Of a DNA stretch of 64,000 nt, positions 29,669 to 47,467 are shown one piece after another (position 1 is the stretch's first letter; every line of letters starts with the position of its first letter). The DNA is from Gammaproteobacteria bacterium (GTDB lineage: Bacteria; Pseudomonadota; Gammaproteobacteria; Steroidobacterales; GCA-2729495), in the NCBI GenBank assembly GCA_028285245.1, contig JANQPY010000016.1:1-64000 (forward strand). Reading direction: 5' to 3'. Both the position numbers and the translations under genes were made by a program. The notes under the pieces were generated by a model. It ran no database searches. It was not told the origin of the DNA and saw only the letters and a program-made list of their open reading frames with translations.

Positions 29669-29861
29669 CCAGATTTCTTCCCGTAAGTCCGGCGTCCCTC
29701 ACGCCGTGAACCAGTTATCGCTTGGTCAGAGATCAACGACTGTGACCGCGTTAACAGTCCGACCTTTTTTCAATGCATTACGTTACGTCGGATGCGATTT
29801 AGTGGGTTATTCGGGTCCAAACTCCCAATCGTTGTTGCGAAGTGATGGGCAGGTACTGCCA

Positions 29862-32495: not shown

Positions 32496-33236
32496 ATGAG
32501 CAGGCTGTCGGTCATCGTGGGCCTCGCCTTACTGGTCGCGGCCCAGGCGGCGGTGGGCGCCAAACGCTATTACGAAGTGGTGGTGATGGACCCCTATATC
32601 GAGCTCCACACGGGGCCGGGCCGGGGCTATCCGATCACGCAGGTGCTTGAGCGCGGCGAGCAGATCGAGGTACTCAAGCGCCGCACCGACTGGTTCAAGG
32701 TCCGCAATGATCGCGGCATCAAGGGCTGGGCCAGCGCCCGCCAGCTATCCCGTACGCTGGAAACCAGCGGCAAGCCGGCCAAAATCCAGGACCCTGATCG
32801 CGATGACTTCGCGCTGCGCAAGCGTGAACTGGGCGTTCAGCTCGGTGAGCTGGAGGGCGCAAACGTTATCCGCGGCTACGCCTCCTGGTTGTTTACGCCC
32901 AACCTGTCGGCTGAGCTGTCGGGCTCGATCATCACCGGGCGTTTCTCTGACGGTTGGATGCTGAGCGCGGATGTCGTGCACCAGCCGTTCCCGAACTGGT
33001 GGATCTCACCGTTTTTTTCGCTCGGCACGGGTGTGCTGCAGATCAATCCCAAATCAACGCTGGTTTCCGCGAAGGATCGCACAGACCAGACGGCGTCTGC
33101 CGGTGCAGGCTTGCGCATGCACGTGGGGCGACGGGTCTTGTTACGGGCCGAATACAAGAACCACGTGTTGTTCACCAGCCGGGATGACAATGAGGAACTG
33201 GAAGAATGGAAAGCAGGCATCTCGTTTTTCTTTTGA
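32496..33236 (+). CDS. SH3-domain protein with predicted outer-membrane barrel
   Basis: A 246-residue exported protein: signal peptide 1-22, bacterial SH3 domain about 25-85 (IELHTGPGRGYPITQVLERGEQIEVL, split here as IELHTGPGRGYPI and GEQIEVLKRRTDWFKVR), then a linker and a beta-barrel-like region ending in aromatic KAGISFFF, as outer-membrane proteins do. It follows the PD40 gene by three bases and overlaps the next gene by 31 bases, so all are in one operon. It may anchor or scaffold the exported redox proteins at the outer membrane; this is inference. Confidence 0.75.
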   Translation: MSRLSVIVGLALLVAAQAAVGAKRYYEVVVMDPYIELHTGPGRGYPITQVLERGEQIEVLKRRTDWFKVRNDRGIKGWASARQLSRTLETSGKPAKIQDPDRDDFALRKRELGVQLGELEGANVIRGYASWLFTPNLSAELSGSIITGRFSDGWMLSADVVHQPFPNWWISPFFSLGTGVLQINPKSTLVSAKDRTDQTASAGAGLRMHVGRRVLLRAEYKNHVLFTSRDDNEELEEWKAGISFFF

Positions 33237-33859
33237 TGAGCGTCGCCCTGCTGTTGTCGGGATGCAGCCGCGCGGTTGTCTCAGACAACTCAGCCGACGC
33301 CGCCGAGCCCGTGATCAATCCGCAGGTGTCGCGGCGCGACATCCGGGAGGCCAGGATTGACTCCGAAAATTTCGAAGTGGGCGCCTACTTCGGCTACATG
33401 AGCGTCGAAGACTTCGGCTCCAATAGCGTGTACGGGGCCAAGCTGGCCTACCACGTGACTGAGTCGCTATTCGTTGAAGCGACTTATGGTGAAACGGACA
33501 CCAGTCAGACCTCATTTGAAATTCTGAGCGGTGGCGCACCGTTGTTGTCAGACGATGATCGTAGGTTTCGCTACTACGACGCTTCCATCGGGCTGAACAT
33601 TCTGCCCGGTGAGGTGTTCCTTGGGCGTGATTGGGCGTTTAACAGCGCGCTGTATTTGATCGGTGGAGTGGGCAACGTGGAGTTTGCCGGCGACAACTAT
33701 TTCACTGCGGTTTTCGGAGCCGGTTATCGCGTGTTGGCCACGGACTGGCTCGCGCTGAACTTCAGCGTGCGGGATCACCTGTTCGATACCGATCTGCTCG
33801 GGGAAGAAAAAACCACGCACAACATCGAGTTCAATCTCGGCCTGACAGCGTTCTTTTGA
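33206..33859 (+). CDS. Outer-membrane beta-barrel lipoprotein
   Basis: A 217-residue protein with a lipobox LLSGC (Cys20) and then an OmpA-like or OmpW-like eight-stranded barrel pattern (FEVGAYFGYMSVEDF, LFVEATYGET, YYDASIGLNIL, ALYLIGGVGNVEF) ending in NLGLTAFF. Its start lies inside the 3' end of the SH3 gene, which suggests coupled translation. The sister gene upstream is also a predicted barrel. Function is unknown. Confidence 0.75.
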   Translation: MESRHLVFLLMSVALLLSGCSRAVVSDNSADAAEPVINPQVSRRDIREARIDSENFEVGAYFGYMSVEDFGSNSVYGAKLAYHVTESLFVEATYGETDTSQTSFEILSGGAPLLSDDDRRFRYYDASIGLNILPGEVFLGRDWAFNSALYLIGGVGNVEFAGDNYFTAVFGAGYRVLATDWLALNFSVRDHLFDTDLLGEEKTTHNIEFNLGLTAFF

Positions 33860-33891
33860 CCGCTGTTTAGGACTGGAGAGGAGTGTAGCCA

Positions 33892-34422
33892 ATGACCTTG
33901 CGTAACCCATTAAGCGACAAACCAGGTAGCAAGCTGATCGTAATGATCGCGGTCGCGCTGCTGTCGGTGCCGACGGCGGCGCTCAACGTCGAGATCTCCG
34001 GGCCGGCTCCGGATTTCAGTCTGGTGAATCGTAGCGGCGAAACAGTTTCGCTGAGCGAGCTGAAAGGGCAGGTGGTGCTGATTAACTTCTGGGCCACCTG
34101 GTGCGGGCCTTGCCGCGAGGAAATGCCTTTGCTGGAGCAGCTTCATCAGCGTTACGAGTCGCTTGGCTTCACGCTGCTGGGTGTGAATGTTGAAGAAGAC
34201 GGCGGCCATGCGGAAGAGTTTCTCGCCGGCACGCCGGTCACCTTTCCGATCCTCTTTGATCCCGATAACGGGGTTAGCAAGCTGTATGACGTCACCGCGA
34301 TGCCGAGCACGGTGCTGGTGGATCGCGGCGGTAACCTGCGCTACCTCCATCATGGCTATAAGGAAGGTTACGAAAACATTTATCAGGACCAGATTCGTAC
34401 TCTGGTTCGCGAGCGGGGCTAG
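33892..34422 (+). CDS. TlpA-like periplasmic thioredoxin
   Basis: A 176-residue thiol-disulfide protein: N-terminal signal or anchor (15-30), then a TlpA/ResA-type fold with the active site WCGPC (Cys71, Cys74) in VVLINFWATWCGPC and the cis-proline loop AMPSTVLVD. It would reduce or shuttle disulfides of periplasmic partners such as apocytochrome c. It begins a tight group with DUF4266, DUF3570 and, further on, ApbE genes. A GGAGAGGAG lies 9-12 bases before the ATG. Confidence 0.9.
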   Translation: MTLRNPLSDKPGSKLIVMIAVALLSVPTAALNVEISGPAPDFSLVNRSGETVSLSELKGQVVLINFWATWCGPCREEMPLLEQLHQRYESLGFTLLGVNVEEDGGHAEEFLAGTPVTFPILFDPDNGVSKLYDVTAMPSTVLVDRGGNLRYLHHGYKEGYENIYQDQIRTLVRERG

Positions 34423-34425
34423 GCA

Positions 34426-34647
34426 ATGAAGCGCGTTAGCGGATTTCTGTTATTGGTTTCGCTCTTTGTGTCCGGGTGCTCAATCGAGCCATGGGTTAAA
34501 CCGTATGAGCGCGATCGCCTGGCCGATGAGATCATGCTGTTCGATCGCGACCCGGTGTCCAGCGCGTATATCCATCACGTCTACGAAGCTCGTGAGGGTG
34601 CGCGCGGAGCGTCAGGGAGTGGGGGCGGAGGCTGTGGCTGCAATTAG
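34426..34647 (+). CDS. DUF4266 small lipoprotein
   Basis: A 73-residue lipoprotein with lipobox VSGC (Cys18), the conserved PWVKPYERDRLADEIM and a glycine-rich end GGGGCGCN. This is the DUF4266 pattern; the paired C-terminal cysteines could bind a metal or heme-type cofactor or form disulfides with the adjacent TlpA protein. It starts three bases after the TlpA gene. DUF4266, DUF3570, TlpA and ApbE genes are known to cluster, but their joint function is not established. Confidence 0.88.
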   Translation: MKRVSGFLLLVSLFVSGCSIEPWVKPYERDRLADEIMLFDRDPVSSAYIHHVYEAREGARGASGSGGGGCGCN

Positions 34648-34664
34648 CCGGGCGCTGAGAAACC

Positions 34665-34770
34665 CTCAGACGTCGCGATACGTCGTTCTGGCCCGGCTCA
34701 AAAAACTCATGTATTGCCATATACATTCCGTTTTTTCGCCAGGCCACGCCTCGTCTCGCGCGCGCCTGAG
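34665..34770. repeat. 106-bp imperfect palindromic element, copy 1
   Basis: Two arms of about 50 bases (34665-34714 and 34721-34770) are inverted copies with few gaps; they close on ATGTAT-TGCCAT-ATACAT and contain matched AAAAAAC and GTTTTTT blocks. The element sits between the DUF4266 and DUF3570 genes. Its core is shared with the element at 51412-51530, so it is a dispersed repeat. It would fold into a long hairpin in the mRNA. Confidence 0.8.
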
Positions 34771-34825
34771 ACTCTCTCAACACCCGGCTGGCCGGCGTTT
34801 TCTTGCTGGCGCAGGGCCGCTAAGA

Positions 34826-35959
34826 ATGACAGCACAGCACCTGGTTGCAGCCCGGCTCAGCTTTGTATTGCTTGCTTTGCTGGCAGCGCCCGCATCCGCG
34901 GGGGTGCTGCCGGACGATCGTGCCGACATTCTTTATCACTACTACGATGGCGGGGGCGTGACCATTGAAGGGCCGTCGTATCTGGTGCGTAAGAGCATTG
35001 GTGAGCAGTTTTCGTTCTACGGCAACTACTACGTTGATACGGTCAGCAGCGCGTCCATCGATGTCGTGACAACTGCCAGTCCCTATGAAGAAGAACGCAC
35101 GGAGCAAAGTGTCGGTGTCGACTTCCTCAATGGCGACACCATCATGAGCCTGTCGGTGACGCAGAGTGAGGAGAATGACTACTCGGCGCAGTCGGTCAAC
35201 TTCTCGATTGCCCAGGAAATTTTTGGCGGACTCACAACGGTGACACTGGGCTACGGCAATGGCTCGGATGAGGTTGGCCGCAACGGCGACGATACTTTTT
35301 CGGATACAGTTGAGCGTCAGGCCTATCGTCTGGGTCTCTCGCAGATTCTCACGCGCAACATGCTGATGTCGATGAACCTGGAAGTGATTACTGACGAGGG
35401 GTTCCTGAATAATCCCTACCGCTCGGTACGCTACCAGGACGGCTTCGGGTTCAGCTATCAGCAGGAAGTCTATCCGCGCACTCGTACCTCGACAGCTGCC
35501 GCGCTGCGAACTCGCTACTACCTGCCGTACCGTGCCTCCGTGCATCTCGGCTATCGCTACTTCACTGACGACTGGGAGATCGAGGCACACACTGCTGAGG
35601 TGGGCTATGCGCATCCCTTCGGGCCGCTCAGCGTCGATCTGAAATACCGTTACTACACCCAGACCGCCGCTGATTTCTACAGCGACCTTTTTCCCTTTGA
35701 GAATGCCCAGAACTTTCTGGCCCGGGACAAAGAGCTGAGTACCTTCCAAAGCCAGACGATTCGTTTGGGCCTGACCTACGATTTCCTGGAGGGCGGCTGG
35801 AGTTTCCTGGAGCGCGGCACAGTCAACTTCTTTTACGATCACATCCTCTTCACCTACGATGATTTTCGCGACCTCGACATCGGTGGTCCAACCGGCGCTG
35901 AACCTCTGTATGAACTTGAGGCCGATGTGATCCAGCTATTCCTGTCTTTCTGGTTCTGA
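34826..35959 (+). CDS. DUF3570 outer-membrane protein
   Basis: A 377-residue exported protein, signal peptide 1-25 (ending PASA), then a continuous beta-barrel pattern ending in VIQLFLSFWF. Hallmarks of DUF3570 are seen: DILYHYYDGGGVTIEGPS near the start, SVTQSEENDYSA, and ALRTRYYLPYRASVHLGYRYF. The ATG at 34826 gives the signal peptide. The long hairpin repeat separates it from the DUF4266 gene, but the pair belongs together by family co-occurrence. It would be the outer-membrane component of the TlpA/DUF4266/ApbE group. Confidence 0.88.
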   Translation: MTAQHLVAARLSFVLLALLAAPASAGVLPDDRADILYHYYDGGGVTIEGPSYLVRKSIGEQFSFYGNYYVDTVSSASIDVVTTASPYEEERTEQSVGVDFLNGDTIMSLSVTQSEENDYSAQSVNFSIAQEIFGGLTTVTLGYGNGSDEVGRNGDDTFSDTVERQAYRLGLSQILTRNMLMSMNLEVITDEGFLNNPYRSVRYQDGFGFSYQQEVYPRTRTSTAAALRTRYYLPYRASVHLGYRYFTDDWEIEAHTAEVGYAHPFGPLSVDLKYRYYTQTAADFYSDLFPFENAQNFLARDKELSTFQSQTIRLGLTYDFLEGGWSFLERGTVNFFYDHILFTYDDFRDLDIGGPTGAEPLYELEADVIQLFLSFWF

Positions 35960-36011
35960 GTCTGGTTTCAAGCCCGGGCGCCACTGTTGCCCGGGACCCG
36001 CTGCTGCCCGG

Positions 36012-36020
36012 TGCTATACT
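36012..36020 (+). promoter_or_regulatory. Extended -10 promoter upstream of the small membrane genes and apbE
   Basis: TGCTATACT is a textbook extended -10 element (TGn before TATACT) with a GC-rich discriminator (CCGCGCCC) behind it. No good -35 lies at 17 bases, as is usual for this promoter type. It would start transcription near 36027. Confidence 0.55.
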
Positions 36021-36075
36021 CCGCGCCCTTCCCGGGCCGTAAATGAGGATTCTTGATGTGGGCGGGCTAACTGCG

Positions 36076-36351
36076 ATGCAACACCGCACGCTGATGGTTA
36101 TTGGTGGCGGCACCGCGGCGTTGGTGGTGATGAACATCTGGCTGTTTTTCAGCAACCGCTCGACCCAGGTCGATGTCGCTCAGCGCCAGCAGTTCATCAA
36201 CGAGTCGGTGCAGCTAAACCGGCTGAACACGCGCATGGTGCAGTTTCTCGCGGATCTTGCTGTCCGCACCGAAGATCAGCGCATTCGCGATCTGCTGATG
36301 GCCAACGGTATCACCATCAATGCCAATGAGAGCGGGGAGGCTGCGCCGTGA
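36076..36351 (+). CDS. Small single-span membrane protein
   Basis: A 91-residue protein with one membrane helix at residues 7-24 and a soluble helical C-terminal part with heptad-like spacing. The ATG at 36076 is preceded by GGCGGG; an in-frame ATG at 36043 would add 11 residues. Its stop overlaps the GTG start of the next gene (GTGA), and apbE follows, so the three form an operon. No family is recognised; a role in the ApbE-linked envelope group is inferred. Confidence 0.7.
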   Translation: MQHRTLMVIGGGTAALVVMNIWLFFSNRSTQVDVAQRQQFINESVQLNRLNTRMVQFLADLAVRTEDQRIRDLLMANGITINANESGEAAP

Positions 36352-36674
36352 GTGAAACTACGACTGACCGTCCTGGCCGCGAGGCTCCGGGCAGTGACTC
36401 GGCCTACCTGCCTTTGTTGATGTTGAGCGTAACCCTGCTCGCCAGCGTTGCGCTGCAGAGCTATTCGCTTTGGAGCGAGCGGCAAAACTATGCCCGGGCG
36501 TTAACCAATCAAGCGGAGCCGCTGGCCGAGGCGCAAAAGACGCGCCAGCAGCTTGAGTCTATCGCCGTAGGCGCGGCCGATCTCGCTGTAACCGGCAATG
36601 CAAACGCGCAGCGGCTGTTGGATGAGTTGTCGAAGCTGGGCGTTAGCGTGACACCCAGCATAGGCACGCAGTAG
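36348..36674 (+). CDS. Small single-span membrane protein with coiled-coil tail
   Basis: A 108-residue protein: membrane helix about 21-40, then a helical region (45-100) likely to be coiled-coil. Start GTG overlaps the previous stop. It resembles its upstream neighbour in size and layout, so the two may form a hetero-complex. It ends seven bases before apbE. No family recognised. Confidence 0.72.
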   Translation: MSETTTDRPGREAPGSDSAYLPLLMLSVTLLASVALQSYSLWSERQNYARALTNQAEPLAEAQKTRQQLESIAVGAADLAVTGNANAQRLLDELSKLGVSVTPSIGTQ

Positions 36675-36681
36675 ACGCGCC

Positions 36682-37680
36682 ATGCGTCGGGCAGCCACCA
36701 TGCCCAGACTCAGTTCTTGTTGGTTGTTGCTATGGTGCGCTTGCACCGCAGCACCGTCACAGGCTGAGTGGATTGCCGAACAGCAGAACAAGATGGGCAC
36801 GCGCGTTGAGGTGCAGTTCTGGGCCGGTGATCTGACCCGATCTGAGTCGGACGAACTGATGAAGCGCGCTATGGCCGAGTTCGACCGTATCGAGGCCGAT
36901 ATGAGCACGTACCGGCCGGACTCGATGCTCTCCGCCGTCAATGACCGCGCCGCCACAATGGCCGTCCCTGTCTCCAGCGAGTTATCCGCGTTGCTGATCG
37001 ATGCACTGCGCCTGTCGGTTCTCACTCAGGGTGCGTTCGACATCACCTATGCGAGTGTGGGCCAGTACTATGACTACCGGGCGCGACAGCGGCCCGGGGC
37101 CGACGTGCTCGAGGCAGCACTCCCGGGTATCAATTACCGCCAGGTTGACGTGTCGGCAGATCCACCCGCGGTGCGCTTTGAACACGCAGGTGTGCGCGTT
37201 GACCTGGGTGGCATTGCCAAAGGGCATGCCGTTGAAAAAGTGGCGGCACTTCTCCGTAAGGCGGGTATTGAGCATGCGCTGGTCACGGCCGGTGGCGATA
37301 CGCAGCTCCTGGGGGACCGGCGCGGAGCACCCTGGATTGTTGGCGTGCGCGACCCGGATCAGCCCAAGGGTTTGGTCACACGCATGGCGCTGGCAGATGA
37401 AGCAATCTCAACATCCGGTGACTACGAACGCTTCTTTATCGAAGACGATGTGCGGTATCACCATATTCTGGATCCATCGACCGGCGAGTCTGCCGGTGCG
37501 GTGCGCAGCGTCACGGTCATCGGACCCAAGGCGACGCTGACGGATGGCTACGCCACCAGCCTGTTCGTGATGGGGCCGGACGAGGGGCTGCAGCTGATCA
37601 ACTCGATTCCTGAATACGAGGCGCTGATCGTTTTGCCCGGCCGCAGCCTGCGGTTCTCAGACGGCCTGGATCCGCGCTGA
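36682..37680 (+). CDS. apbE: FAD:protein FMN transferase (ApbE)
   Basis: A 332-residue exported protein (signal to about residue 28, ending SQA) of the ApbE family. It would transfer FMN from FAD to a threonine of a periplasmic or membrane target such as NqrB/RnfG-type proteins. Motifs: GTRVEVQFW, EADMSTYRPDSMLSAVND, DLGGIAKGHAVEKV, TSGDYERFF and HHILDPSTGESA. It closes the TlpA-DUF4266-DUF3570-ApbE group. Its flavinylated partner is not obvious in the window. Confidence 0.93.
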   Translation: MRRAATMPRLSSCWLLLWCACTAAPSQAEWIAEQQNKMGTRVEVQFWAGDLTRSESDELMKRAMAEFDRIEADMSTYRPDSMLSAVNDRAATMAVPVSSELSALLIDALRLSVLTQGAFDITYASVGQYYDYRARQRPGADVLEAALPGINYRQVDVSADPPAVRFEHAGVRVDLGGIAKGHAVEKVAALLRKAGIEHALVTAGGDTQLLGDRRGAPWIVGVRDPDQPKGLVTRMALADEAISTSGDYERFFIEDDVRYHHILDPSTGESAGAVRSVTVIGPKATLTDGYATSLFVMGPDEGLQLINSIPEYEALIVLPGRSLRFSDGLDPR

Positions 37681-37779
37681 AGTATCCGCCTGGCGCTTGA
37701 ATCGGGCGCAGGCCCCGAACGGGCCCAGATCCCATAGCGACGGCGCCGCAACCCACTTCACTTAAGGCTCAGGTGTTCC

Positions 37780-37794
37780 GTGACTCCGGTCACA
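37780..37794. promoter_or_regulatory. CRP-like operator upstream of the c-di-GMP riboswitch
   Basis: GTGACTCCGGTCACA fits the CRP half-sites GTGA-N6-TCACA. The centre at 37786-37787 is about 70 bases before the riboswitch, a spacing suited to activation of its promoter. A 13 of 14 identical copy lies at 58724-58737. Confidence 0.55.
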
Positions 37795-37855
37795 GGAATC
37801 GCCTGGTGGGCCTGCGACCATTGTGCTGCGGACCGTCTGCGCTGCAGCAGGTCTG

Positions 37856-37944
37856 TCCAGCACAGGGCAAACCCGGCGAAAGCCGGGGACGCAAAGCTTC
37901 CGGTCTACGGGCCTGCCAGCAGGTCCAGGACAGCGGGGCTGCAT
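37856..37944 (+). ncRNA. Cyclic di-GMP-I (GEMM-I) riboswitch
   Basis: The conserved GEMM-I blocks are all present in order: CACAGGGCAAACC, a CCGGC-GAAA-GCCGG hairpin with the GAAA tetraloop (37878-37881), GGACGCAAAGC (37887-37897), TCCGG, a variable CCTGC/GCAGG hairpin, and AGCGGGGCTGC. This class binds c-di-GMP. It lies 118 bases before the TlpA-like gene that opens the ten-gene envelope operon. Downstream, an inverted repeat (GCCCGC/GCGGGC, 38013-38031) may belong to the expression platform; it lacks a T-run, so control may be on translation or through Rho. On or off behaviour cannot be told. Confidence 0.92.
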
Positions 37945-38061
37945 CGCCATGCTCGAACTCGAGCTCGGCGGTCTTGCGTTCCTCGTCTCCGGTTTCCTGT
38001 GATTGCACGGCAGCCCGCTTTGGCAGCGGGCAATACGGGATCAGCGGCGACGGTGGAAGGC

Positions 38062-38601
38062 ATGCGTCACAGGCGAAGAACGGCGAGAACAGGCAAGCGG
38101 GCGGCGGCACTTTTGTCTGCGCTGCTGCTGGCAGCCTTGCTGCCAGGTGCCAACGCGGGTTCGCTTGAGGGCGAGCTGGCGCCGGACTTTGCGCTCAAGT
38201 CAATGGACGGCCAAAACTTAAGGCTCAGCGAATACCGCGGCGAAGTCGTCCTGATGAACCTCTGGGGTAGCTGGTGCGGCAAGTGTCGCGATCAGCTTGC
38301 CGCCATCGAACAGCTGCGTGAGACGTACAGCGATCAGAACGTCGCGGTACTTAGCGTCAATCTTGATCGCAAGCTTAAGAAAGTTCGCGGGCTCACAGAG
38401 CAGCTCAGCCTCAACTTTCCGATTCTTCTGGACCCCCGCAAACAGGTGGCACGCGCCTACGACCCATCGCGCATGCCGATGACCGTGGTACTGGACCAGT
38501 CCGGCACGGTGCGTGCCACATGGCAGGGCTACAAAGCCGGCGACACCCAACTCTACATGGCAGAACTTGAGCAGCTCCTATCTGAGCAAACCTGGAACTG
38601 A
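38062..38601 (+). CDS. TlpA-like thioredoxin, first gene of the c-di-GMP riboswitch operon
   Basis: A 179-residue exported thiol-disulfide protein: signal peptide 1-32 with a basic start, then the TlpA/ResA fold with WCGKC (Cys72, Cys75) in VVLMNLWGSWCGKC and the cis-Pro segment RMPMTVVLD. It has Lys instead of the usual Pro in the CxxC, which should alter its redox potential. It is the first of ten genes that continue to 47467. It is distinct from the TlpA protein at 33892. A role in reducing disulfides of the following periplasmic proteins is inferred. Confidence 0.88.
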   Translation: MRHRRRTARTGKRAAALLSALLLAALLPGANAGSLEGELAPDFALKSMDGQNLRLSEYRGEVVLMNLWGSWCGKCRDQLAAIEQLRETYSDQNVAVLSVNLDRKLKKVRGLTEQLSLNFPILLDPRKQVARAYDPSRMPMTVVLDQSGTVRATWQGYKAGDTQLYMAELEQLLSEQTWN

Positions 38602-38608
38602 GCGCGTT

Positions 38609-39148
38609 ATGAACAAATCAACACCCATCATGAACTCCTGCAGGCTGCTCGTGGCAGCGGCGAGCCTGTGGTTGTCGGCTGCGGCGTTTGCGGAAACGGC
38701 ACCGGCCGCGCTCGACCAGGAGGTGCAAGACCTTAAGGCGGAAGTTCTGGACCTGAATCGCGAGCTGTTCCTGCTTGAGGAAGAGCTGCTTTTTCCAGCC
38801 AACACTCAAGTGGCCGTGTTTGTTTCCATGGACATCGGCGAGTTTTTCTCTCTGGACTCCGTGCAGCTCGAACTGAACGGCAAGTCGGTCGCCAACTACC
38901 TGTATACGGATCGCGAGATAAAGGCACTAAATCGGGGCGGCGTTCATCAGCTGTTTGTCGGCAACCTGAAGACTGGCGAACACGAGATCGTGGCCTTCTT
39001 TACCGGCCTGGGTCCTCAGGGCCGCGAGTACCGGCGCGGCGCGACACTGAATTTCGACAAGCAGATCGGGGCGAAGTACATCGAACTGCAAATCTCTGAC
39101 TTCGAGGTCAAGCAACAGCCCGAGTTCGTGGTCAGGGAGTGGGAGTAA
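38609..39148 (+). CDS. Exported coiled-coil protein of the envelope operon
   Basis: A 179-residue exported protein: signal 1-28 (ending AFA), a heptad-rich helix at about 33-62 (LDQEVQDLKAEVLDLNREL), and a beta-rich domain (65-175) with QVAVFVSMDIGEFFSLDSV and HEIVAFFTGLGPQGREY. It is unlike any enzyme I know; it looks like a structural or assembly protein. It starts seven bases after the TlpA gene and three before the TPR gene, so it is co-translated with them. I do not recognise a named family. Confidence 0.8.
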   Translation: MNKSTPIMNSCRLLVAAASLWLSAAAFAETAPAALDQEVQDLKAEVLDLNRELFLLEEELLFPANTQVAVFVSMDIGEFFSLDSVQLELNGKSVANYLYTDREIKALNRGGVHQLFVGNLKTGEHEIVAFFTGLGPQGREYRRGATLNFDKQIGAKYIELQISDFEVKQQPEFVVREWE

Positions 39149-39151
39149 CCC

Positions 39152-41029
39152 GTGATGCGGGTGACCTCAATGCGCCGGGCATGCGCGCTGTTGTGCGGCG
39201 CCGTGCTGCTTGCAGCGTCGGCTGCGGGAGCCCGCGACCTCGACGGCATTGAAGTCCGTGATCTGCACTATGGCGAAGTGCTGTTCCATTTTTACCAGCA
39301 GGAAGACTTTCGGGCCTTAACGCATTTGCTCACGGCTCGCTCCGCCGGCAAGCTGCCTCGTCACGACGCAGATTCAGAACTGTTGCTTGGTGGTCTGTAC
39401 CTGGCCTACGGCCAGCACGGGCAAGCCGAGGAAATCTTCCAGCGACTGCTGGATGAATCGGTTGAGGCGCCGGTCCGTGACCGCGCGTGGTTTTATCTGG
39501 GCAAGGTGCGGTATCACCGCAGCCTCTACGCGCAGGCCGAAGCCGCGCTCAACAAGGTTGAGGGCGAGTTGCCCGAGGGCTTAGCAGCCGAACATCGTTT
39601 GCTGCTGGCACAAAGCCTGATTCATCAGGCGCGATTCGACGAAGCGGCGGAAACATTAGAGCGCTGGCGAGGTCCGCGCGACTGGACCGCCTACGCGCGC
39701 TACAACCTGGGCGTTGCACTAGTCCGCAACGGACAGCTTGAGTTGGGAACCCGCGCGCTGCGCAAAGTCGGTGATCTGCCGGATCGCAAGGGCGAGCTGC
39801 GGGACCTTCGCGATCAGGCCAATCTCGCCCTGGGCTACGCCTACCTGCAGGCTGGTGAAGCGAGCGAGGCGCGTAACGTTCTGCGCCGTGTCAGTTTGCA
39901 CGGTCCATTCTCGAACAAGGCGCTGCTAGGCGTTGGCTGGGCTGATGCACAGCTAGAGGACTATCGCGATGCCCTCGTGCCCTGGCTGGAGTTGCGCGAT
40001 CGGGATCTGTTGGATGGCGCTGTCCAGGAAGCGCTGCTTGCCGTGCCGTACGCATTCGGCCGGTTGGAGGCCCACGGCTCATCTGTCGACCACTACCTCG
40101 ACGCATTAGCTGCGTTCGACGCCGAGGTCGTCCGGCTTCGCAATGCCACTGACCGGGCACGCAGCGGAGAGCTGATCCCCGCGTTGCTGCAGACCGATGA
40201 TCCCGGCATTGGCCGGTGGTACTGGCAGCTGGAGCAAGTGCCTGACAATGACGATGCCCGTTATCTCTACCACCTGGTCGCCGATCATGTGTTTCAGGAC
40301 GGCCTGCGTAATGTGCGCGATTTGCTGGCGCTGGGTGAGCACTTGCGAGAGTGGGAGAAAAAACTCGTCGCCTTTCGCGACATGGTGGACACCCGTGCTG
40401 AGGCGTATGCGCAACGGCTACCGGTCGTCGCTGGCAAGCTCATGAACATGGACCTCAAGGCGATCCGTGCCGAACGTGATGCGCAGATGAGTGCCTGGTT
40501 AGCGGCCGGCGAGCCGGAACCCGACGTCACCAGCCTGGCGACGGCCACCGAACTTGATCAGTGGGAGCGTCTGGTCTCGATGGAGGAGAGTCCCGCCTGG
40601 CAGACCGCCGAGGCGGCGGAGGCGCGCAGCAAGCAGCGCGTCCTCAAGGGCCTGTTGCTGTGGCAGCTCGATAGAGAACACAAGTTACGCCACTGGCAGC
40701 AGCGCCAGGCGATTGCCTCGCTTGATGAAGCGCTGAGCGCTGCGGAGGCAGGCACCGCCAGTGCGGTCCAGGTCAGAGATGGGATTCCACGCGAGCTCAA
40801 AGCGTTTCGCCTGCGTCTCGACCGGCTCGAGGAGCGGCTTGGGCAGATGCAGTTATCAGTCCGGCAGGCACTGGGTGGGCAGGAGGAGCGGCTGCAGCTG
40901 ATGGCGATTCGTTCGCTGGATGAGCAGCGTGAGCGACTGGCGACTTATCGCATCCAGGCACGCTTCGCACTCGCCAATATCTACGATCGGGCCAATGCGA
41001 CCGCCGCGCGCCAGGAAACGGACCGGTGA
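39152..41029 (+). CDS. Periplasmic TPR protein
   Basis: A 625-residue exported protein (signal ending about residue 28, AAGA). Residues about 40-330 are tetratricopeptide-like helix pairs (LLGGLYLAYGQHGQAEEIFQ, ARYNLGVALVRNGQLELG, LALGYAYLQAGEASEARNVL). The second half is all-helical with a coiled-coil near 525-600. Starts GTG at 39152 (ATG at 39155 equally possible) behind GGAG; its stop overlaps the next start. In the Agl/Glt-like systems large periplasmic TPR proteins link the motor to the outer envelope. Confidence 0.85.
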   Translation: MMRVTSMRRACALLCGAVLLAASAAGARDLDGIEVRDLHYGEVLFHFYQQEDFRALTHLLTARSAGKLPRHDADSELLLGGLYLAYGQHGQAEEIFQRLLDESVEAPVRDRAWFYLGKVRYHRSLYAQAEAALNKVEGELPEGLAAEHRLLLAQSLIHQARFDEAAETLERWRGPRDWTAYARYNLGVALVRNGQLELGTRALRKVGDLPDRKGELRDLRDQANLALGYAYLQAGEASEARNVLRRVSLHGPFSNKALLGVGWADAQLEDYRDALVPWLELRDRDLLDGAVQEALLAVPYAFGRLEAHGSSVDHYLDALAAFDAEVVRLRNATDRARSGELIPALLQTDDPGIGRWYWQLEQVPDNDDARYLYHLVADHVFQDGLRNVRDLLALGEHLREWEKKLVAFRDMVDTRAEAYAQRLPVVAGKLMNMDLKAIRAERDAQMSAWLAAGEPEPDVTSLATATELDQWERLVSMEESPAWQTAEAAEARSKQRVLKGLLLWQLDREHKLRHWQQRQAIASLDEALSAAEAGTASAVQVRDGIPRELKAFRLRLDRLEERLGQMQLSVRQALGGQEERLQLMAIRSLDEQRERLATYRIQARFALANIYDRANATAARQETDR

Positions 41030-43827
41030 AATTCGTGATGACCGTAAGTGCCGTCGTGCTCAGCGCCGGGCTGTGGCCCTTCGGCGGCAAGCAGGTACCT
41101 GACGAGAGCGACACCATTGGCGATCTGCGCCGGCAGAAGCTTGAGCTCAAGCGGGAGACCGACTTCGACGACGGCGCCGCCAAAGCGCGCGAGCAGTATC
41201 GCGATTTCCTGACCATCGACGATGCGGATCCGGCGCTGCAGCTCGAGGCGATGCGGCGGCTGGCCGATCTCAATCTGGAGGCGGGTGAGGACGCAGGTGC
41301 AACGGGCGGTCCGGACGAAGCTGAGTACTACGCAGAATCAGTCGCACTGTATCGAAAGTTGTTGGCACAGAATCCTGACTACGCTGAGCGCGATCTGATT
41401 CTGTATCAGCTGGCACGCGGCCAGGAGATCATGGCGGATAGCACGGCGGCCATGGGTGCGCTTGACCTGTTGGTCAGCGAGTACCCGGACAGTAAGTTCT
41501 ATGACGAGGCGCAGTTCAGGCGCGGCGAGATGCTGTTCGTGGCCGGCCGGCATCGTGAAGCCGAGGCAGCTTATGCGGCCGTGATCAACCGCGGCGAGAC
41601 TTCGGCTTTCTTCGAGCAGTCGCTCTATAAGCACGGCTGGTCGCTGTTCAAGCAGTCGCGGCACATCGATAGCCTCGATTCGTTCGTAATGTTGCTCGAC
41701 CGAAGGCTTGCGCATCCGGAAGGCCCGCTGGCTGCTCTGGATGAAATGTCGCGGCCGCAGCGCGAGATGGTCGATGACTGTTTTCGCGTGATGTCGATTA
41801 GCTTTGAGTACACCGATGGCGCGCAAACCATCGACGCCCTGCTCGCAGAGCGCCCGAGCCTGGCGTATGCCCACCTGCTGTACGCGAGCCTTGGTGATCT
41901 CTATCTGGATCAGGAGCGCTTCGTCGACGCTGCAGATACCTATGGCGCCTTCGTTGTGCGCAATCCCACGCACGCCGCTGCGCCCGGGCTGCAGGTGCGC
42001 GTGATTGACGCCTACACAACCGGCCGCTTCCCCAGCCTCGTGCTGGAGGCGAAAGAAGACTACGTGCGCGCTTACGGACTGGACAGTGATTTCTGGCTGC
42101 AACGATCACCCGGCGAGTTTCCGCAGGTGGTGGCTGATCTGAAGACGAGCCTGAGTGACCTGGCTGGTTACGACCATGCCCGCGCGCAGGCAGGCGATGG
42201 CGAGGAAGCGTACGAGCGCGCGGCCGGCTGGTATCGGCGTTATCTGGCCTACTTTCCAAACGATCCGGACTCGGCACAGCGGAGCTTTCTCCTGGCCGAC
42301 ATTCTCAATGAGCTTAAGCGCTACGGTGAGGCAACGGATCAGTACCTCGACGCCGCCTACGCGTATGGCCCGCATCCACAGGCGGGCGAAGCCGCGTACG
42401 CTGCAGTCCTGACAGCGCGTGCGCATGAGGCACAGCTCAGCGACTCGTTGCTGACCGCCTGGCGTGCGCGCAGTCTGGAAGACGCCCTGCGCTTTGCGGA
42501 GAGTTTTCCAGCGCATCCGCAGGCCGCACCGGTGCGTACCAAGGTGGCCGAGGATCTGTTTGCAGACGGTCAGCTTGAGCGCGCGGTGACGGTGGCCGGT
42601 CTGGTCGTCACTCAACAGCCTCCCGTCACGGTGAAACTTGAGCGGACCGCGTGGCGCGTGCTGGCTCACGCGCAGTTCGACCTGGCCCGCTACGCTGATG
42701 CAGAGCAGGCCTATGCACGGTTGCAGCTCCTGCCGCTGGAATCGCCCGAGCAGGCGGAGGAGCTTGAGGCTCGCGTGGCGGCCTCGGTGTACAAGCAAGC
42801 TGAGCAGGCCAGGGATGCAGGCGATATCGACGCCGCCGTGCGACAGTTTCTGCGTGTGGGCACGGCCGCACCTGGTGCAACCACTGTTGCCACCGCGGTG
42901 TATGACGCCGCCGCGCTGCTGATCGGGGCCGAGCGCTGGGATGAGGCGATCCCGGTGCTGGATGATTTCAGGGCCCGTTTCCCGGGGCACGAATTCAACG
43001 ACGACGTCACCATGAAGCTCGCCGTTGCGCAGCGTTCGGCAGGTCAGTCCGTGGCGGCCGCCCGCGAGTTTGAGCAGGTGGCGGTGCTGACGAGTGCCAC
43101 CCCGGAGGTGCAGCGCGAGGCGCTGTGGGAAGCTGCCGAACTCTACGCCAGCGCCGACCGCCCGGTTGACGAAAGACGAGTATTCACCAGCATCGTTGCC
43201 CGCTTCCCGGTACCTCTGAGCGAGTCCATGGAAGCGCGTTTACGTCTGGCGGATCTGGCGCGCGATCTCAACGACGCGGCAGATCGACGGCGCTGGCTGG
43301 AGGACATCGTGCGCGCTGATGCGACTGCCGGCGCGGGCCGTACGGACCGCACCCGCACGCTTGCCGCGACCGCGACGCTTGAATTGGCCGCGCCACTGCG
43401 CGATGCATTCCGCGCTGTTGCCCTCACGATCCCCCTGAAGGACAGCCTCAGCGTGAAGAAGAATCGCATGGAGCTGGCGTTGGACGCTTACGGGAAAGCC
43501 GCGGAGTACGGCGTAGCGGACGTGGCGACTGCGGCCAACTTCGAGATTGCAGAGCTCTACTACCGGCTCAGCATCGACCTGATGGATTCCCAGCGGCCTT
43601 CCGGCTTGTCGGCTGAGGAGCTTGAGCAGTACGAAATCTTGCTCGAGGAACAGGCGTTTCCGTTTGAAGAACAGGCGATTGATCTATTCGTTACGAACGC
43701 GGACCGGGCAGCCGACGGGCTGTATGACGAATGGGTCAGGAAGAGTTTTGCGCGCCTGGCGGCCCTGATGCCCGCGCGCTACGCGAAAGTCGAGAGGAGT
43801 GAGGCCCTTGTTACACAAATCAACTAA
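41026..43827 (+). CDS. Large periplasmic TPR protein
   Basis: A 933-residue protein with a short signal-like start (MTVSAVVLSAGLWPFGG) and TPR helix pairs over most of its length, for example LYRKLLAQNPDYAERDLILYQLARGQE, here cut as LYRKLLAQNPDYAERDLILY, then FYDEAQFRRGEMLFVAGRHREAE-like units and WYRRYLAYFPNDPDSAQRSF. GTG start overlaps the previous stop (GTGA), and its end overlaps the next gene by 29 bases. Signal cleavage is uncertain; it may be anchored. The length and position match the large TPR partner (PglI/GltI type) of Agl/Glt-like clusters, by analogy only. Confidence 0.82.
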   Translation: MKFVMTVSAVVLSAGLWPFGGKQVPDESDTIGDLRRQKLELKRETDFDDGAAKAREQYRDFLTIDDADPALQLEAMRRLADLNLEAGEDAGATGGPDEAEYYAESVALYRKLLAQNPDYAERDLILYQLARGQEIMADSTAAMGALDLLVSEYPDSKFYDEAQFRRGEMLFVAGRHREAEAAYAAVINRGETSAFFEQSLYKHGWSLFKQSRHIDSLDSFVMLLDRRLAHPEGPLAALDEMSRPQREMVDDCFRVMSISFEYTDGAQTIDALLAERPSLAYAHLLYASLGDLYLDQERFVDAADTYGAFVVRNPTHAAAPGLQVRVIDAYTTGRFPSLVLEAKEDYVRAYGLDSDFWLQRSPGEFPQVVADLKTSLSDLAGYDHARAQAGDGEEAYERAAGWYRRYLAYFPNDPDSAQRSFLLADILNELKRYGEATDQYLDAAYAYGPHPQAGEAAYAAVLTARAHEAQLSDSLLTAWRARSLEDALRFAESFPAHPQAAPVRTKVAEDLFADGQLERAVTVAGLVVTQQPPVTVKLERTAWRVLAHAQFDLARYADAEQAYARLQLLPLESPEQAEELEARVAASVYKQAEQARDAGDIDAAVRQFLRVGTAAPGATTVATAVYDAAALLIGAERWDEAIPVLDDFRARFPGHEFNDDVTMKLAVAQRSAGQSVAAAREFEQVAVLTSATPEVQREALWEAAELYASADRPVDERRVFTSIVARFPVPLSESMEARLRLADLARDLNDAADRRRWLEDIVRADATAGAGRTDRTRTLAATATLELAAPLRDAFRAVALTIPLKDSLSVKKNRMELALDAYGKAAEYGVADVATAANFEIAELYYRLSIDLMDSQRPSGLSAEELEQYEILLEEQAFPFEEQAIDLFVTNADRAADGLYDEWVRKSFARLAALMPARYAKVERSEALVTQIN

Positions 43828-44467
43828 CGAGCAGCTGAAACGCACTCGCAAGGAAGCCATTCGGGCTTTCCTGCTGGCGGCATCACTGGCGCTGGGTGCC
43901 TGCGCCGGCGGTCCCGCCAAGCGGGCCGAGCAGGGCGCTGAGACGGAAGCTGCCTATCCTCCGGCAGCCACAGACCGCTATGCGCGGGCCCTCGGCCTGA
44001 TGGACGCCGGCGACTACTCGCGCGCGCAGCGGGAGCTGGTCTTGCTGACCGAGAAGTTCCCCGACCTGGCCGGCCCATATCACAACCTGGCACTCATTGA
44101 AGCGGACAAGGGCAGCCCGGATAACGCGGCCGCTCTGCTCAAAGCGGCTCTGGAGCGCTGCCTGCGTTGCGCGGCGAGCTGGAACCAGTTGGGCATCCTG
44201 CACCGGCAAGCCGGACGTTTCGCTGAGGCGGAAGGCGCCTATCTGTCCGCAGTCGAGAATGAACCCGGCTACGCGCTGGCGCACTACAACCTGGGCGTGC
44301 TCTACGACCTTTATCAGCAGCGCCACGAACTCGCAGTTCAGCACTACGAGCGTTATGTCAGCTTGTCGGGCGACGCCGACGCCATCAAACAGGTCGACAA
44401 ATGGATCGCTGATCTCCGCCGGCGCCTGGCGGCGCCCCAGCGCGCGGCGCAGGCTGGAGAGCTGTGA
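43799..44467 (+). CDS. TPR lipoprotein
   Basis: A 222-residue lipoprotein (lipobox ALGAC, Cys35) with three to four TPR units from about residue 60 to 190 (ARALGLMDAGDYSRAQREL, NLALIEADKGSPDNAAALL, NQLGILHRQAGRFAEAEGAY, AHYNLGVLYDLYQQRHELAV). The frame starts with GTG at 43799, but the TTG at 43808 is better spaced from GAGAGGAG and may be the true start. It resembles the AglT/GltE-type TPR lipoprotein that accompanies TolQR-like motors. Confidence 0.85.
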   Translation: MRPLLHKSTNEQLKRTRKEAIRAFLLAASLALGACAGGPAKRAEQGAETEAAYPPAATDRYARALGLMDAGDYSRAQRELVLLTEKFPDLAGPYHNLALIEADKGSPDNAAALLKAALERCLRCAASWNQLGILHRQAGRFAEAEGAYLSAVENEPGYALAHYNLGVLYDLYQQRHELAVQHYERYVSLSGDADAIKQVDKWIADLRRRLAAPQRAAQAGEL

Positions 44468-44763
44468 TGCGCATGGCACTTACCGTGATCTTGCTCCTGC
44501 AGTCAGTGCTGGCCCTGGCGGAGGACGCTCCGGCTACGGCGGCAGATCCAGCCGCTCAGGACTTCCTGGAGCTAGACAGCTCGGCAGTGCGGGGCAATCA
44601 GGAACTGCCTCGGGTCCTGTCGATTGTGCCGTGGAAGGATCCGGCCATTGGGGACCTGGTGGGCAAGCCCGTGAACAGCCTGGTCGATGAGGTGCTGGCT
44701 CCCGTGGACCGTGAAGTGTTCCGCAGACAAACCGCTTATTTCGATCAATTGTATAGGGACTAG
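44464..44763 (+). CDS. Small exported protein of the envelope operon
   Basis: A 99-residue protein with a signal peptide (1-19, ending ALA) and an 80-residue mature part containing LPRVLSIVPWKDPAIGDL and EVLAPVDREVFRRQT. It starts in the stop of the TPR lipoprotein gene (GTGATG) and lies 65 bases before the TolQ-like gene. No family recognised. Its constant place between the TPR lipoprotein and the motor genes suggests a link between the two. Confidence 0.78.
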   Translation: MMRMALTVILLLQSVLALAEDAPATAADPAAQDFLELDSSAVRGNQELPRVLSIVPWKDPAIGDLVGKPVNSLVDEVLAPVDREVFRRQTAYFDQLYRD

Positions 44764-44828
44764 GGATCGATCCCGGGCGGCGCGGCCCGGCCAGGTCCTC
44801 CTCAAGTGCCGCCAGAAGGAGAGCAGGC

Positions 44829-45479
44829 ATGGAATTCTACTCAAGCATCGTGAGTTTCTTTCAGGACGGTGGGGTCTTCATGTACCCAATCGTCGTTGTG
44901 TTCGCACTGGGTTTTGCGATTTCCGTGGAGCGCTGGATCTTCCTGAGCAAGACCAGCCTCGGTAACCGCATGCTGTGGAAGAAGATCACGCCGTTCATCC
45001 AGGCCGGAAAGTTTCAGGAAGCAGTTGGCGTAACGTCCAAGTCGAAAGCTGCCATTGCCACGATACTGACCTACGGGCTGCATCGCATTAAGACGGCAGC
45101 GCGTCGCGATGACATCGAAAAGGCAATGGAAGAGAGCCTGATGGAAGTCATGCCGCGACTCGAGAAGCGCACGCATTACCTGGCCACGTTTGCCAATGTC
45201 GCGACGCTGCTGGGGCTGCTCGGCACGATTATTGGTCTGATCAATGCCTTCACCGCGGTCGCGGCTGCGAATCCAGCGGAGAAGGCCGATATGCTCTCGG
45301 CCAGTATTTCCGTGGCGATGAACACGACAGCCTTCGGCCTGATGGCCGCAATTCCGCTATTGCTGCTGCACACGGTGCTCCAGAGCAAGACCACGGAGAT
45401 TGTGGATAGCCTGGAAATGGCTTCAGTGAAGTTTCTGAATGCGATTGACGAGCGTCGCACCGAGGCCGCTGCCGCATGA
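44829..45479 (+). CDS. MotA/TolQ/ExbB proton channel protein
   Basis: A 216-residue inner-membrane protein with three helices (about 18-38, 120-143, 163-185), a cytoplasmic loop between the first two, and the family core TLLGLLGTIIGLINAF followed by SVAMNTTAFGLMAAIPLLLLH. It forms the stator pentamer that uses the proton motive force. AGAAGGAG lies 8 bases before the ATG. Its stop overlaps the next start (ATGA). It serves two following TolR/ExbD proteins and a TonB-like protein. Confidence 0.95.
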   Translation: MEFYSSIVSFFQDGGVFMYPIVVVFALGFAISVERWIFLSKTSLGNRMLWKKITPFIQAGKFQEAVGVTSKSKAAIATILTYGLHRIKTAARRDDIEKAMEESLMEVMPRLEKRTHYLATFANVATLLGLLGTIIGLINAFTAVAAANPAEKADMLSASISVAMNTTAFGLMAAIPLLLLHTVLQSKTTEIVDSLEMASVKFLNAIDERRTEAAAA

Positions 45480-45976
45480 GGAGTTCCTGGCGACGCCACC
45501 GGTCGAATGACCCGGCGGAGTTGAACATTACGGCCTTCATGAACCTGATGGTCATCCTGGTGCCGTTTCTGCTCATCACCGCCGTGTTCTCGCGCGTGGC
45601 GATTCTGGAGCTGAACCTGCCTTCGTCCGGGGAGCAGCAGGCTGAACTGCCGGAATCCATGCAGCTGGAAGTCATCGTGCGCGCGGACCGGATCGAGGTT
45701 GGCGAGCGCAACAGCGGCTTGCTGACGCGTCTGCCGAAGCAGTCGAAAGCTCACGACTACGCGGGACTCACCGAGTATCTGCAGCGCGTCAAGGCAGACT
45801 TCCCCGACAAGCTCGATGCGTCAATCCTGCTTGAGCCGGATGTGCCGTACGACGTGCTGGTGCAGGTGATGGATGCGGTGCGAGTGTTCGACGCGGAGCG
45901 CGACGGCGACACTTTCAAGGCCGAGCTGTTTCCGGAAATTTCCATCGGCGACGCACCTGTCATCAAGCGGAGCTAA
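45476..45976 (+). CDS. TolR/ExbD-like protein lacking the usual aspartate
   Basis: A 166-residue protein with one membrane helix (18-39) and a periplasmic ExbD-like domain (about 60-160). In ExbD and TolR the helix carries an essential proton-binding Asp; here the equivalent position in NITAFMNLMVILVPF is Asn23. The next gene keeps the Asp. It therefore may be a non-conducting partner in a mixed dimer. ATGA overlap with the TolQ-like gene shows tight coupling. Confidence 0.9.
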   Translation: MRSSWRRHRSNDPAELNITAFMNLMVILVPFLLITAVFSRVAILELNLPSSGEQQAELPESMQLEVIVRADRIEVGERNSGLLTRLPKQSKAHDYAGLTEYLQRVKADFPDKLDASILLEPDVPYDVLVQVMDAVRVFDAERDGDTFKAELFPEISIGDAPVIKRS

Positions 45977-45979
45977 GTC

Positions 45980-46516
45980 ATGCAGATGTCCAAGCGTGCC
46001 AAGCGAATGGAGCGGCGTAACGCACGCGGCAAGCGCGGCGTGGCGCTGAATCTCGTCTCGCTCATGGACATTTTTACCATCCTGGTGTTCTTCCTGTTGG
46101 TCAACTCATCCGACGTTGAGGTGTTGCCCAACTCCAAAGATATTCAGCTGCCCGAATCCATTGCTGACCAGAAGGCACGGGAAAACGTCATCGTGCTGGT
46201 CACGGATGAAAAAGTGCTGGTGCAAGGGCGCGAAGTGGCGAGCGTTAGTGAGATTGAAGCCGCTGGCGACCTGATCATTCCTGATCTGGAGGCAGCCCTG
46301 CGCGCGCAGAACGACCGGGTGCTGCGACGAGCCGATCAGGCTGAGATCCTGAGTCGCGAGGTCACCATCATGGGTGACCGGGAATTGCCCTACAGCCTGC
46401 TCAAGCGGGTGATGGCGACCTGCACCGCGGCCGACTACGGCAAGATTTCATTAGCCGTGCTGCGCCGGACACCACCGGCTGACGAAGGCCTGGTGGTCGC
46501 GAGTACGGCGGGCTAG
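45980..46516 (+). CDS. TolR/ExbD-like protein with intact aspartate
   Basis: A 178-residue protein: basic N-terminus, a membrane helix (24-43) with Asp30 in VSLMDIFTILVFFLLV, the canonical proton-binding position, and a periplasmic domain containing NVIVLVTDEKVLVQGREV. It lies three bases after the first ExbD-like gene. Together with the TolQ-like protein it should form the energised channel, with this subunit carrying the proton-relay residue. Confidence 0.93.
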   Translation: MQMSKRAKRMERRNARGKRGVALNLVSLMDIFTILVFFLLVNSSDVEVLPNSKDIQLPESIADQKARENVIVLVTDEKVLVQGREVASVSEIEAAGDLIIPDLEAALRAQNDRVLRRADQAEILSREVTIMGDRELPYSLLKRVMATCTAADYGKISLAVLRRTPPADEGLVVASTAG

Positions 46517-46522
46517 ACCGGC

Positions 46523-47467
46523 ATGATTCCCTACTACCGCACTTACGCACTGGCATGGGATACGTCGTTCGACCAGGACGACCAGTTTCGCGACATCCTC
46601 AAGCGCGTTTGTCTGACGGTACTGGCGCTCGCCATAGTACTCACTCTGTTGCCGGTGCCGGAGCTCGCTCGAGACCGCGTTGAGGAAGTGCCGGAACGCT
46701 TTGCGAAGCTGTTACTTGATCGCCCCAAACCGCCCCCGCCGCCGCCGGTGGTCCGGCAGCCGGAACCGGAGAAGCCCGAGCCGATCGAGAAAAAGCCGGT
46801 GGAGAAAAAGGCTGAGGTGAAGAAGCCGGAGCCAAAACCGGTCGTGGACAAAGCAGCAGAGGCACGCAAGAAAGCATCAGTCGCTGGCCTGCTGCCGTTC
46901 GTAGATCAGCTGAAGGATCTGCGCGACAACGAAGCGGTGGCAAGCGTGCGCAATCAGCGGAATCTTGCCGGTGCGGCAGGCTCAGCCGCGCGCGCTGAAC
47001 GCGCACTGATTACTTCACGGGCCGGAACCGCGAGCGGCGGGATTAACACCGCGGCCATGAGCCGGGATACCGGCGGTGCAGGTCTGGCTGGGCGCGAAAC
47101 AACAGAAGTTTCCAGCACGGTAGCCGGCCTAGATGCTCAGCGTCCTGAGGCCGACCGCGTGGGCGACACCAATCGTCCGGCGCGCAGCCGCGAAGAAATC
47201 GAGATGATCTTCGATCAGAACAAGGGCGCCATCTACGCGCTGTATAACCGAGCGTTGCGGCGTGATCCGGGCCTGCAGGGCAAGCTCGTGCTTCGCTTGA
47301 CCATTGAGCCCTCCGGCGCCGTCTCGCTGGTCGAGATTGTCTCCAGCGAGTTCGATGATGACGAACTGGAGCGCAAGCTTGTGCAGCGGATTAAGCTGTT
47401 CCGCTTTCTTGAGAAAGACGTCGCGCCCGTTACGACCACCAAGCCAATCGATTTCTTCCCCGCCTAG
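46523..47467 (+). CDS. TonB-like protein with AgmX/PglI-type C-terminal domain
   Basis: A 314-residue energy-transducing protein: cytoplasmic start, one membrane helix (about 29-46), a Pro/Lys/Glu-rich periplasmic stretch (68-110, with RPKPPPPPPVVRQP), a flexible Gly/Ala/Ser part, and a C-terminal TonB-like domain (222-312) with IEMIFDQNKGAIYALYNRAL and GKLVLRLTIEPSGAVSLVEI. The last resembles the AgmX/PglI C-terminal domain of the Myxococcus gliding machinery. It would carry energy from the channel to a partner across the periplasm. It ends the operon. Confidence 0.9.
   Translation: MIPYYRTYALAWDTSFDQDDQFRDILKRVCLTVLALAIVLTLLPVPELARDRVEEVPERFAKLLLDRPKPPPPPPVVRQPEPEKPEPIEKKPVEKKAEVKKPEPKPVVDKAAEARKKASVAGLLPFVDQLKDLRDNEAVASVRNQRNLAGAAGSAARAERALITSRAGTASGGINTAAMSRDTGGAGLAGRETTEVSSTVAGLDAQRPEADRVGDTNRPARSREEIEMIFDQNKGAIYALYNRALRRDPGLQGKLVLRLTIEPSGAVSLVEIVSSEFDDDELERKLVQRIKLFRFLEKDVAPVTTTKPIDFFPA

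Follow-up and report, generated by a model that had tools for sequence, protein, structure and literature searches.

What kind of machine is encoded by the ten-gene operon at positions 38062-47467 of this stretch of gammaproteobacterial DNA, and which signals control it? The window, that is, the whole analyzed stretch of 64,000 nucleotides (contig JANQPY010000016.1), comes from an uncultured marine gammaproteobacterium with a genome of 2.79 Mb. The original prediction placed a cyclic diguanylate (c-di-GMP) riboswitch and a site resembling that of the cyclic AMP (cAMP) receptor protein, CRP, in front of genes similar to the Agl/Glt gliding motor of Myxococcus. Our analysis makes it probable that an Agl/Glt-type core operon is controlled here by a CRP-activated class II promoter together with a c-di-GMP-I leader. 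All features described below lie on the forward (+) strand. The compared operon loci are designated by L numbers, f1 is the window's own family, and f3 is a Woeseiaceae-type family of the same order. Woeseia and Woeseiaceae are among the named relatives, and as their contig coordinates recur in f3 loci, Woeseiales is the probable order.

Riboswitch and predicted promoter of the operon leader

The c-di-GMP-I (GEMM-I) aptamer occupies positions 37856-37946. The Rfam scan of the window reports it with the covariance model RF01051 at 73.2 bits (E 1.9e-12; gathering score 35), at full length and with zero mispaired positions, which bears out the predicted element. In the alignment of 17 operon-leader aptamers and one other GEMM-I of the same genome, 95.1% of the cells are paired, compared with 32-46% in slid control structures. 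Two-sided changes are observed in 12 of the 22 aptamer pairs (4.7 in shuffles), and the covariation score is 0.298 versus 0.164 in shuffled alignments, none of the 500 shuffles being as high. The ligand-discriminating base, which we take to be position 20 in the numbering of Vc2 from V. cholerae, is G in the window and in 13 of the 17 operon aptamers, three others having A and one having C. In the genome, 13 GGDEF domains are encoded.

Riboswitches of relatives were surveyed with a model built from the operon aptamers, operons with enough upstream sequence being considered testable. Of the 93 testable operons of the order, 26, in six families, have a riboswitch directly before their first gene (16/22 in f1, 3/3 in f183, 2/2 in f185, 2/11 in f2, 2/8 in f191 and 1/29 in f3), and the same survey yields zero operon riboswitches in six other families of the order. 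By our own estimate, the chance expectation is about 5e-4 per operon, given some five elements in a 2.8 Mb genome and a strand-specific target of 600 bases. In these operons the riboswitch lies upstream of tolQ at a distance of about 7 kb. In a tree built from three operon proteins, the riboswitch state changes nine times, compared with 23.7 in shuffles, a measure that counts state changes only and cannot separate gain from loss. In the well-supported clade that includes the window, 19 of the 25 operons have a riboswitch, and L036 retains a degenerate remnant of one (31.6 bits) that lacks its middle part. Loci L060 and L062 belong to genomes of other families, yet their operon, CRP promoter and riboswitch fall inside the window's clade; the operon may have been transferred together with its leader, or the contigs may be misbinned.

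The CRP-like site CGTGACTCCGGTCACA (37779-37794) matches nine of the ten consensus bases and is conserved at a fixed spacing in relatives. Nowhere else in the 2.79 Mb genome does the extended motif match without a mismatch. A second near-perfect extended motif, with one mismatch, is found in genome G000 (contig C46:336-356, L222), before a 109-residue reading frame near the contig end. The site is followed by a predicted extended -10 element, TG-C-GACCAT (TGCGACCAT, 37813-37821), identified by sequence and conservation, from which a transcription start at about 37828 is predicted; relative to this start, the site is centred at -41.5. Class II CRP promoters have their CRP site centred at this position.

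The conservation of this arrangement is strong. A site with at least eight of the ten consensus bases is present in all 23 f1 operons (2.4 expected from shuffles) and in all 20 first-copy f3 operons (2.1 expected). The full site with the extended -10 pattern is found in 18 of the 23 f1 operons (0 expected) and in 17 of the 20 f3 operons (0.1 expected); the pattern was derived from f1, and f3, where only one operon has a riboswitch, serves as a largely independent test. Moreover, 51 of the 74 operons with the site have, at the exact spacing, A in position 2 and T in position 6 of the -10 hexamer (about 4.6 expected), and six f3 exceptions differ by a one-base shift. The promoter geometry is thus conserved, and the predicted site fits class II CRP dependence.

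The genome itself encodes a CRP protein (314 bits, cut-off 266) that retains the recognition-helix residues of E. coli CRP, as well as a class III nucleotide cyclase. Several members of the CRP/FNR superfamily read the same site, and c-di-GMP-responsive Clp proteins exist, so the GTGAN6TCAC site could belong to a superfamily member other than CRP, perhaps to a Clp-type regulator that senses c-di-GMP. This seems quite unlikely, as only two CRP/FNR-type proteins were found in the genome, of which one is CRP and the other has an FNR-type recognition helix, and as this CRP scores about 258 bits in alignments to known structures of CRP and Vfr, compared with 200 bits for the Clp structure 3iwz.

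With CRP as the activator, the class II promoter would produce a transcript of all ten genes, preceded by the leader with the c-di-GMP-I riboswitch. cAMP-CRP would set whether the operon is transcribed, and c-di-GMP would set the share of the transcript that is used; the riboswitch would presumably act on the operon as a whole. This control would operate without an intrinsic terminator, via the translation start or Rho.

The direction of the c-di-GMP effect may be judged from the other GEMM-I elements of this genome, which precede pilMNOPQ, the gene of a kelch-repeat protein, and the genes of two further proteins, one of them PEP-CTERM-like. These targets suggest a surface programme. As genes of the type IV pilus and of a PEP-CTERM surface protein are among them, and on this sole basis, we slightly favour activation, with c-di-GMP increasing the operon output. 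The GEMM-I before pilMNOPQ (L054 8353-8480, on contig C35 of the same genome) has a long variable stem and spans 128 nt; aptamers of similar length are present in many genomes of the family, and c-di-GMP may thus control type IV pilus assembly. The second GEMM-I of the window (62937-63051; L056 3097-6836) precedes the genes of a PEP-CTERM-like protein and a large TPR (tetratricopeptide repeat) protein, and the genes beyond these encode a CoA-transferase, a sulfotransferase and a sugar-epimerase.

Several observations weigh against regulation by the riboswitch. The leader between the aptamer and the first gene (37947-38061) contains neither a U-tract terminator nor a conserved structure, and the folding of 28 leaders (mean z -0.33) reveals no structure shared by them. 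As no expression platform has been identified, the regulatory step itself is unsupported. The three aptamers with A and the one with C in position 20 indicate that the riboswitches of some relatives may sense cyclic GMP-AMP (cGAMP) or both ligands. The distribution is patchy as well: only one of 29 operons in f3 and none of 40 operons sampled from the rest of the class carry a riboswitch, and in the class sample beyond the order no GEMM-I is found upstream of tolQ on the same contig. It follows that the riboswitch is not needed for the machine, and GEMM-I control as a general feature of the complex is rejected. Since the CRP promoter is distributed more widely than the riboswitch, the latter looks like a lineage-specific layer, gained and lost atop the promoter.

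A further point on the same side comes from the closest regulatory precedent. Transcription of gbpA in V. cholerae is driven by CRP-cAMP, and its leader contains a putative GEMM-I element, Vc1, so that CRP control and a GEMM-I leader are combined on one gene; unlike the operon studied here, gbpA encodes one secreted adhesin and not a machine (PMC4545359). The effect of c-di-GMP on gbpA transcription is independent of Vc1 (PMC4545359), so that there a similarly arranged leader did not function as a riboswitch in transcription. Another related case is Bdellovibrio, where cyclic dinucleotides affect gliding and Bd0367 is involved in cGAMP control (PMC9140294). There, too, a cyclic dinucleotide governs a Glt-type machine; the differences are that the ligand is cGAMP and that a riboswitch before the machine genes is not described. 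Direct GEMM-I control of such a motor had been suggested to be undescribed, and none was found in the searched literature, which omits most subscription papers. The machine is known, and its joint control by CRP and a riboswitch is new as far as the literature was searched.

The operon proteins and the Agl/Glt core complex

The ten reading frames are separated by gaps of a few bases or overlap, the one larger gap being the predicted 65 bases between the gene of a small exported protein and tolQ. Domains were assigned by Pfam and NCBIfam profile searches of the operon proteins, which recovered the whole expected set (TlpA/AhpC-TSA, three TPR proteins, MotA_ExbB, two ExbD and AgmX/PglI). The first gene (38062-38601) encodes an exported TlpA/ResA-type thioredoxin with the active site WCGKC (AhpC-TSA, 90.8 bits), and the second (38606-39148) encodes an exported protein with a coiled coil and a beta-sandwich. 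TPR protein A (39152-41029) has TPR matches and, from comparison with Luciano et al. (2011), appears GltC-like by position and type. TPR protein B (41026-43827; 933 residues; TPR matches and tol_pal_ybgF, 78 bits) is putatively GltD-like by type, and the TPR lipoprotein (43799-44467) is GltE-like by type. They are followed by a small exported protein of 99 residues (44464-44763), a stator ring protein of the TolQ/ExbB/AglR type (44829-45479; PF01618, 104 bits), two AglQ/S-type proteins, TolR1 (45476-45976; PF02472, 57 bits) and TolR2 (45980-46516; PF02472, 59 bits), and a GltG-like membrane-anchored, proline-rich arm with a C-terminal AgmX/PglI domain (46523-47467; NF033768, 63 bits, cut-off 40).

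This layout bears on the target of the riboswitch. The thioredoxin gene is the first one, and its start is the only one adjoining the aptamer, so that the riboswitch could be a passenger or control the thioredoxin gene only, the other genes being driven from elsewhere. We consider this very unlikely. The genes are separated by a few bases or overlap; a scan for sigma-70-type consensus promoters finds none inside the operon, though the same scan also misses the predicted leader promoter. Moreover, the operons of L136 and L137 lack the thioredoxin gene and still have the GEMM-I in front of them, and hence the common target is the operon rather than this gene.

By composition, the operon fits a gammaproteobacterial Agl/Glt core complex. 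In several Gammaproteobacteria, homologues of gltC, D, E, G and aglR, Q, S form a single cluster with one further gene, according to the parts of Luciano et al. that concern the core complex (PMC3169522). The operon shares with that complex one TolQ, two TolR, three TPR-type partners, the AgmX/PglI protein and a gene absent from Myxococcales, which is probably the gene of the coiled-coil protein. It differs from the same parts of that account in that a riboswitch and a CRP promoter are not reported there and in the thioredoxin added at the front in this order. The core homologues expected in some gammaproteobacteria are indeed found: strong tolQ orthologues are present in 84 of the 369 genomes of the class and in 28 of the 40 genomes of the family, tolQ orthologues occur in 93 of the 157 genomes of the order, and the nine-gene arrangement is kept across the class.

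The two proteins that the original prediction had regarded as extra parts differ in this respect. The coiled-coil gene accompanies the complex in 31 of the 39 class loci, and the idea that it is a local extra is rejected; its product shows 55-70% identity across 31 aligned sequences of the order and appears to be a core component. The thioredoxin gene, on the contrary, stands at the operon front in 57 of the 87 order loci and in only two of the 39 class loci; judging by this distribution, it is an addition of this order, and in this part the prediction holds. Neither the coiled-coil protein nor the 99-residue exported protein has any Pfam or NCBIfam match. The AlphaFold2 model of the former consists of a helix and a beta-sandwich (predicted local distance difference test score, pLDDT, 83), and a fold search with it finds nothing at E 0.001. 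The small exported protein has tblastn matches with 29-81% identity preceding tolQ in nearly all order loci.

Since MotA_ExbB and ExbD are superfamilies shared with TonB/ExbBD systems, and the arm has a weak TonB_C match, one could suppose that the operon encodes an ordinary energiser of nutrient uptake tuned by the riboswitch. This is highly improbable. The TonB_C match of the arm (21 bits) is below the Pfam cut-off of 24.6, while AgmX/PglI is above its own, and on this C-terminal domain the uptake reading is rejected. In addition, there are two TolR per TolQ with a conserved Asn/Asp asymmetry (see below), the nine-gene arrangement is conserved class-wide, and no TonB-dependent receptor was found among the genes examined around the operon.

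The relation of this Agl/Glt-type core to the gliding machine of M. xanthus is more limited. The operon resembles the AglRQS/Glt gliding machine and the Nfs sporulation machine in the motor type, with one TolQ and two TolR, and in the AgmX/PglI-type arm. However, the NCBIfam equivalog models of M. xanthus fail by far: the scores are 24.5 bits for GltE against the TPR lipoprotein (cut-off 225), whose repeats are too general for orthology, 39.7 for GltG (cut-off 650) and 30.6 for GltJ (cut-off 450). Because of these scores, membership in the M. xanthus gliding machine is not claimed. By domain, none of the Group A genes (gltA, B, F, H, I, J, K) is among the operon genes; the rest of the genome was not searched for them. 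The composition like that of AglRQS/Glt and the influence of cyclic dinucleotides on gliding in Bdellovibrio (PMC9140294) would agree with the core complex powering gliding, or some other movement on surfaces, in this organism. Still, we regard such a role as unlikely, as the Group A genes are missing from the operon, the organism is uncultured, and Luciano et al., in the parts on the core complex, argue that the core alone does not drive motility and that most of its carriers are not known gliders (PMC3169522).

As a core complex, the proteins could work as follows. The TolQ ring in the inner membrane would surround TolR1 and TolR2, and proton flow would move the ring assembly. The AgmX-type arm, together with the TPR and coiled-coil proteins, would transmit this motion across the periplasm to an outer-membrane partner, and the machine would presumably operate on the surface of attached cells. 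No function has been assigned to the core complex since its description in 2011, and its conserved controls offer a way to find its role. The promoter and the riboswitch would place the complex in one regulon with the genes of the type IV pilus and of a PEP-CTERM surface protein; a regulon so defined indicates the signals under which a phenotype should be sought.

Asymmetry of the two TolR proteins

TolR1 has Asn (FMNLM, aligned to NVTPFID of ExbD) in place of the transmembrane Asp of TolR, ExbD and MotB, while TolR2 retains the Asp (LMDIF). Such changes of this Asp in MotB, ExbD and TolR lead to loss of function. In the window and the operons of L026-L138 and L242-L281, the Asn/Asp pair is observed in 86 of the 105 order operons, the remainder being Asp/Asp, and in all 40 class operons; the Asp of TolR2 is present in every operon examined. 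If TolR1, having no proton-carrying Asp, carries no protons, it should pair with TolR2, and the asymmetry points to an axle that is a heterodimer and has one proton site. This differs from AglQ and AglS, which according to a review both have the aspartate and whose pairing, as stated there, is not known (PMC9389320). With the Asn/Asp pair one could test directly whether a 5:2 motor can run on a single proton site.

One f1 branch (L045, L046, L049-L052) has an Asp/Asp motor, and its tolQ/tolR/tolR genes are far more divergent than the other operon genes. TolQ identity is 57-61% there, and the other operon proteins are as near to those of the window as the proteins of its kin, which looks like an exchange of the motor part within a conserved operon.

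Upstream neighbours of the operon

The adjacent upstream cluster (33206-37680) encodes an outer-membrane beta-barrel-like protein (33206-33859), a thioredoxin (33892-34422), a DUF3570 variant (34826-35959), two small proteins and an ApbE flavin transferase (36682-37680). ApbE or DUF3570 adjoins the operon in 59 of the 87 order loci and in 14 of the 39 class loci. DUF3570 and tolQ occur together in 69 genomes, tolQ alone in 15, DUF3570 alone in 26, and neither of them in 259 (Fisher p 6e-38, in a test that ignores shared ancestry). The short DUF3570 variant, as delimited by eye, is present in 57 genomes of the class sample, 54 of which have tolQ. Its model is a beta-barrel (pLDDT 81.8) with structural matches to porins and exporters (best E 2e-8).

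ApbE flavinylates DUF3570 proteins, and neighbouring ApbE, DUF3570 and thioredoxin genes are a feature that this locus shares with the flavinylation clusters of Meheust et al. (2021; PMC8238504). In contrast to those clusters, DUF3570 here is shorter and tracks the core complex, and S(S/G)AS replaces the two [S/T]GA[S/T] motifs. As the motif reads S(S/G)AS, flavinylation of the variant is uncertain. The DUF3570 barrel is a possible partner of the machine, to which it may be linked physically or functionally, and as a beta-barrel neighbour it is a candidate for what the arm moves. A more far-reaching idea, which we put forward tentatively and consider rather doubtful as a whole, is that the gammaproteobacterial core complex forms a distinct class of rotary envelope motors with an obligate TolR1(Asn)/TolR2(Asp) axle having one proton site and with a beta-barrel partner from the DUF3570/ApbE cluster, possibly flavin-bearing, at the cell surface, and that this order has brought it under joint control by cAMP and c-di-GMP. 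Further upstream, at 29448-32492, the window encodes a 1014-residue protein with a match to the HZS_alpha middle domain (62 bits) and PD40 repeats.

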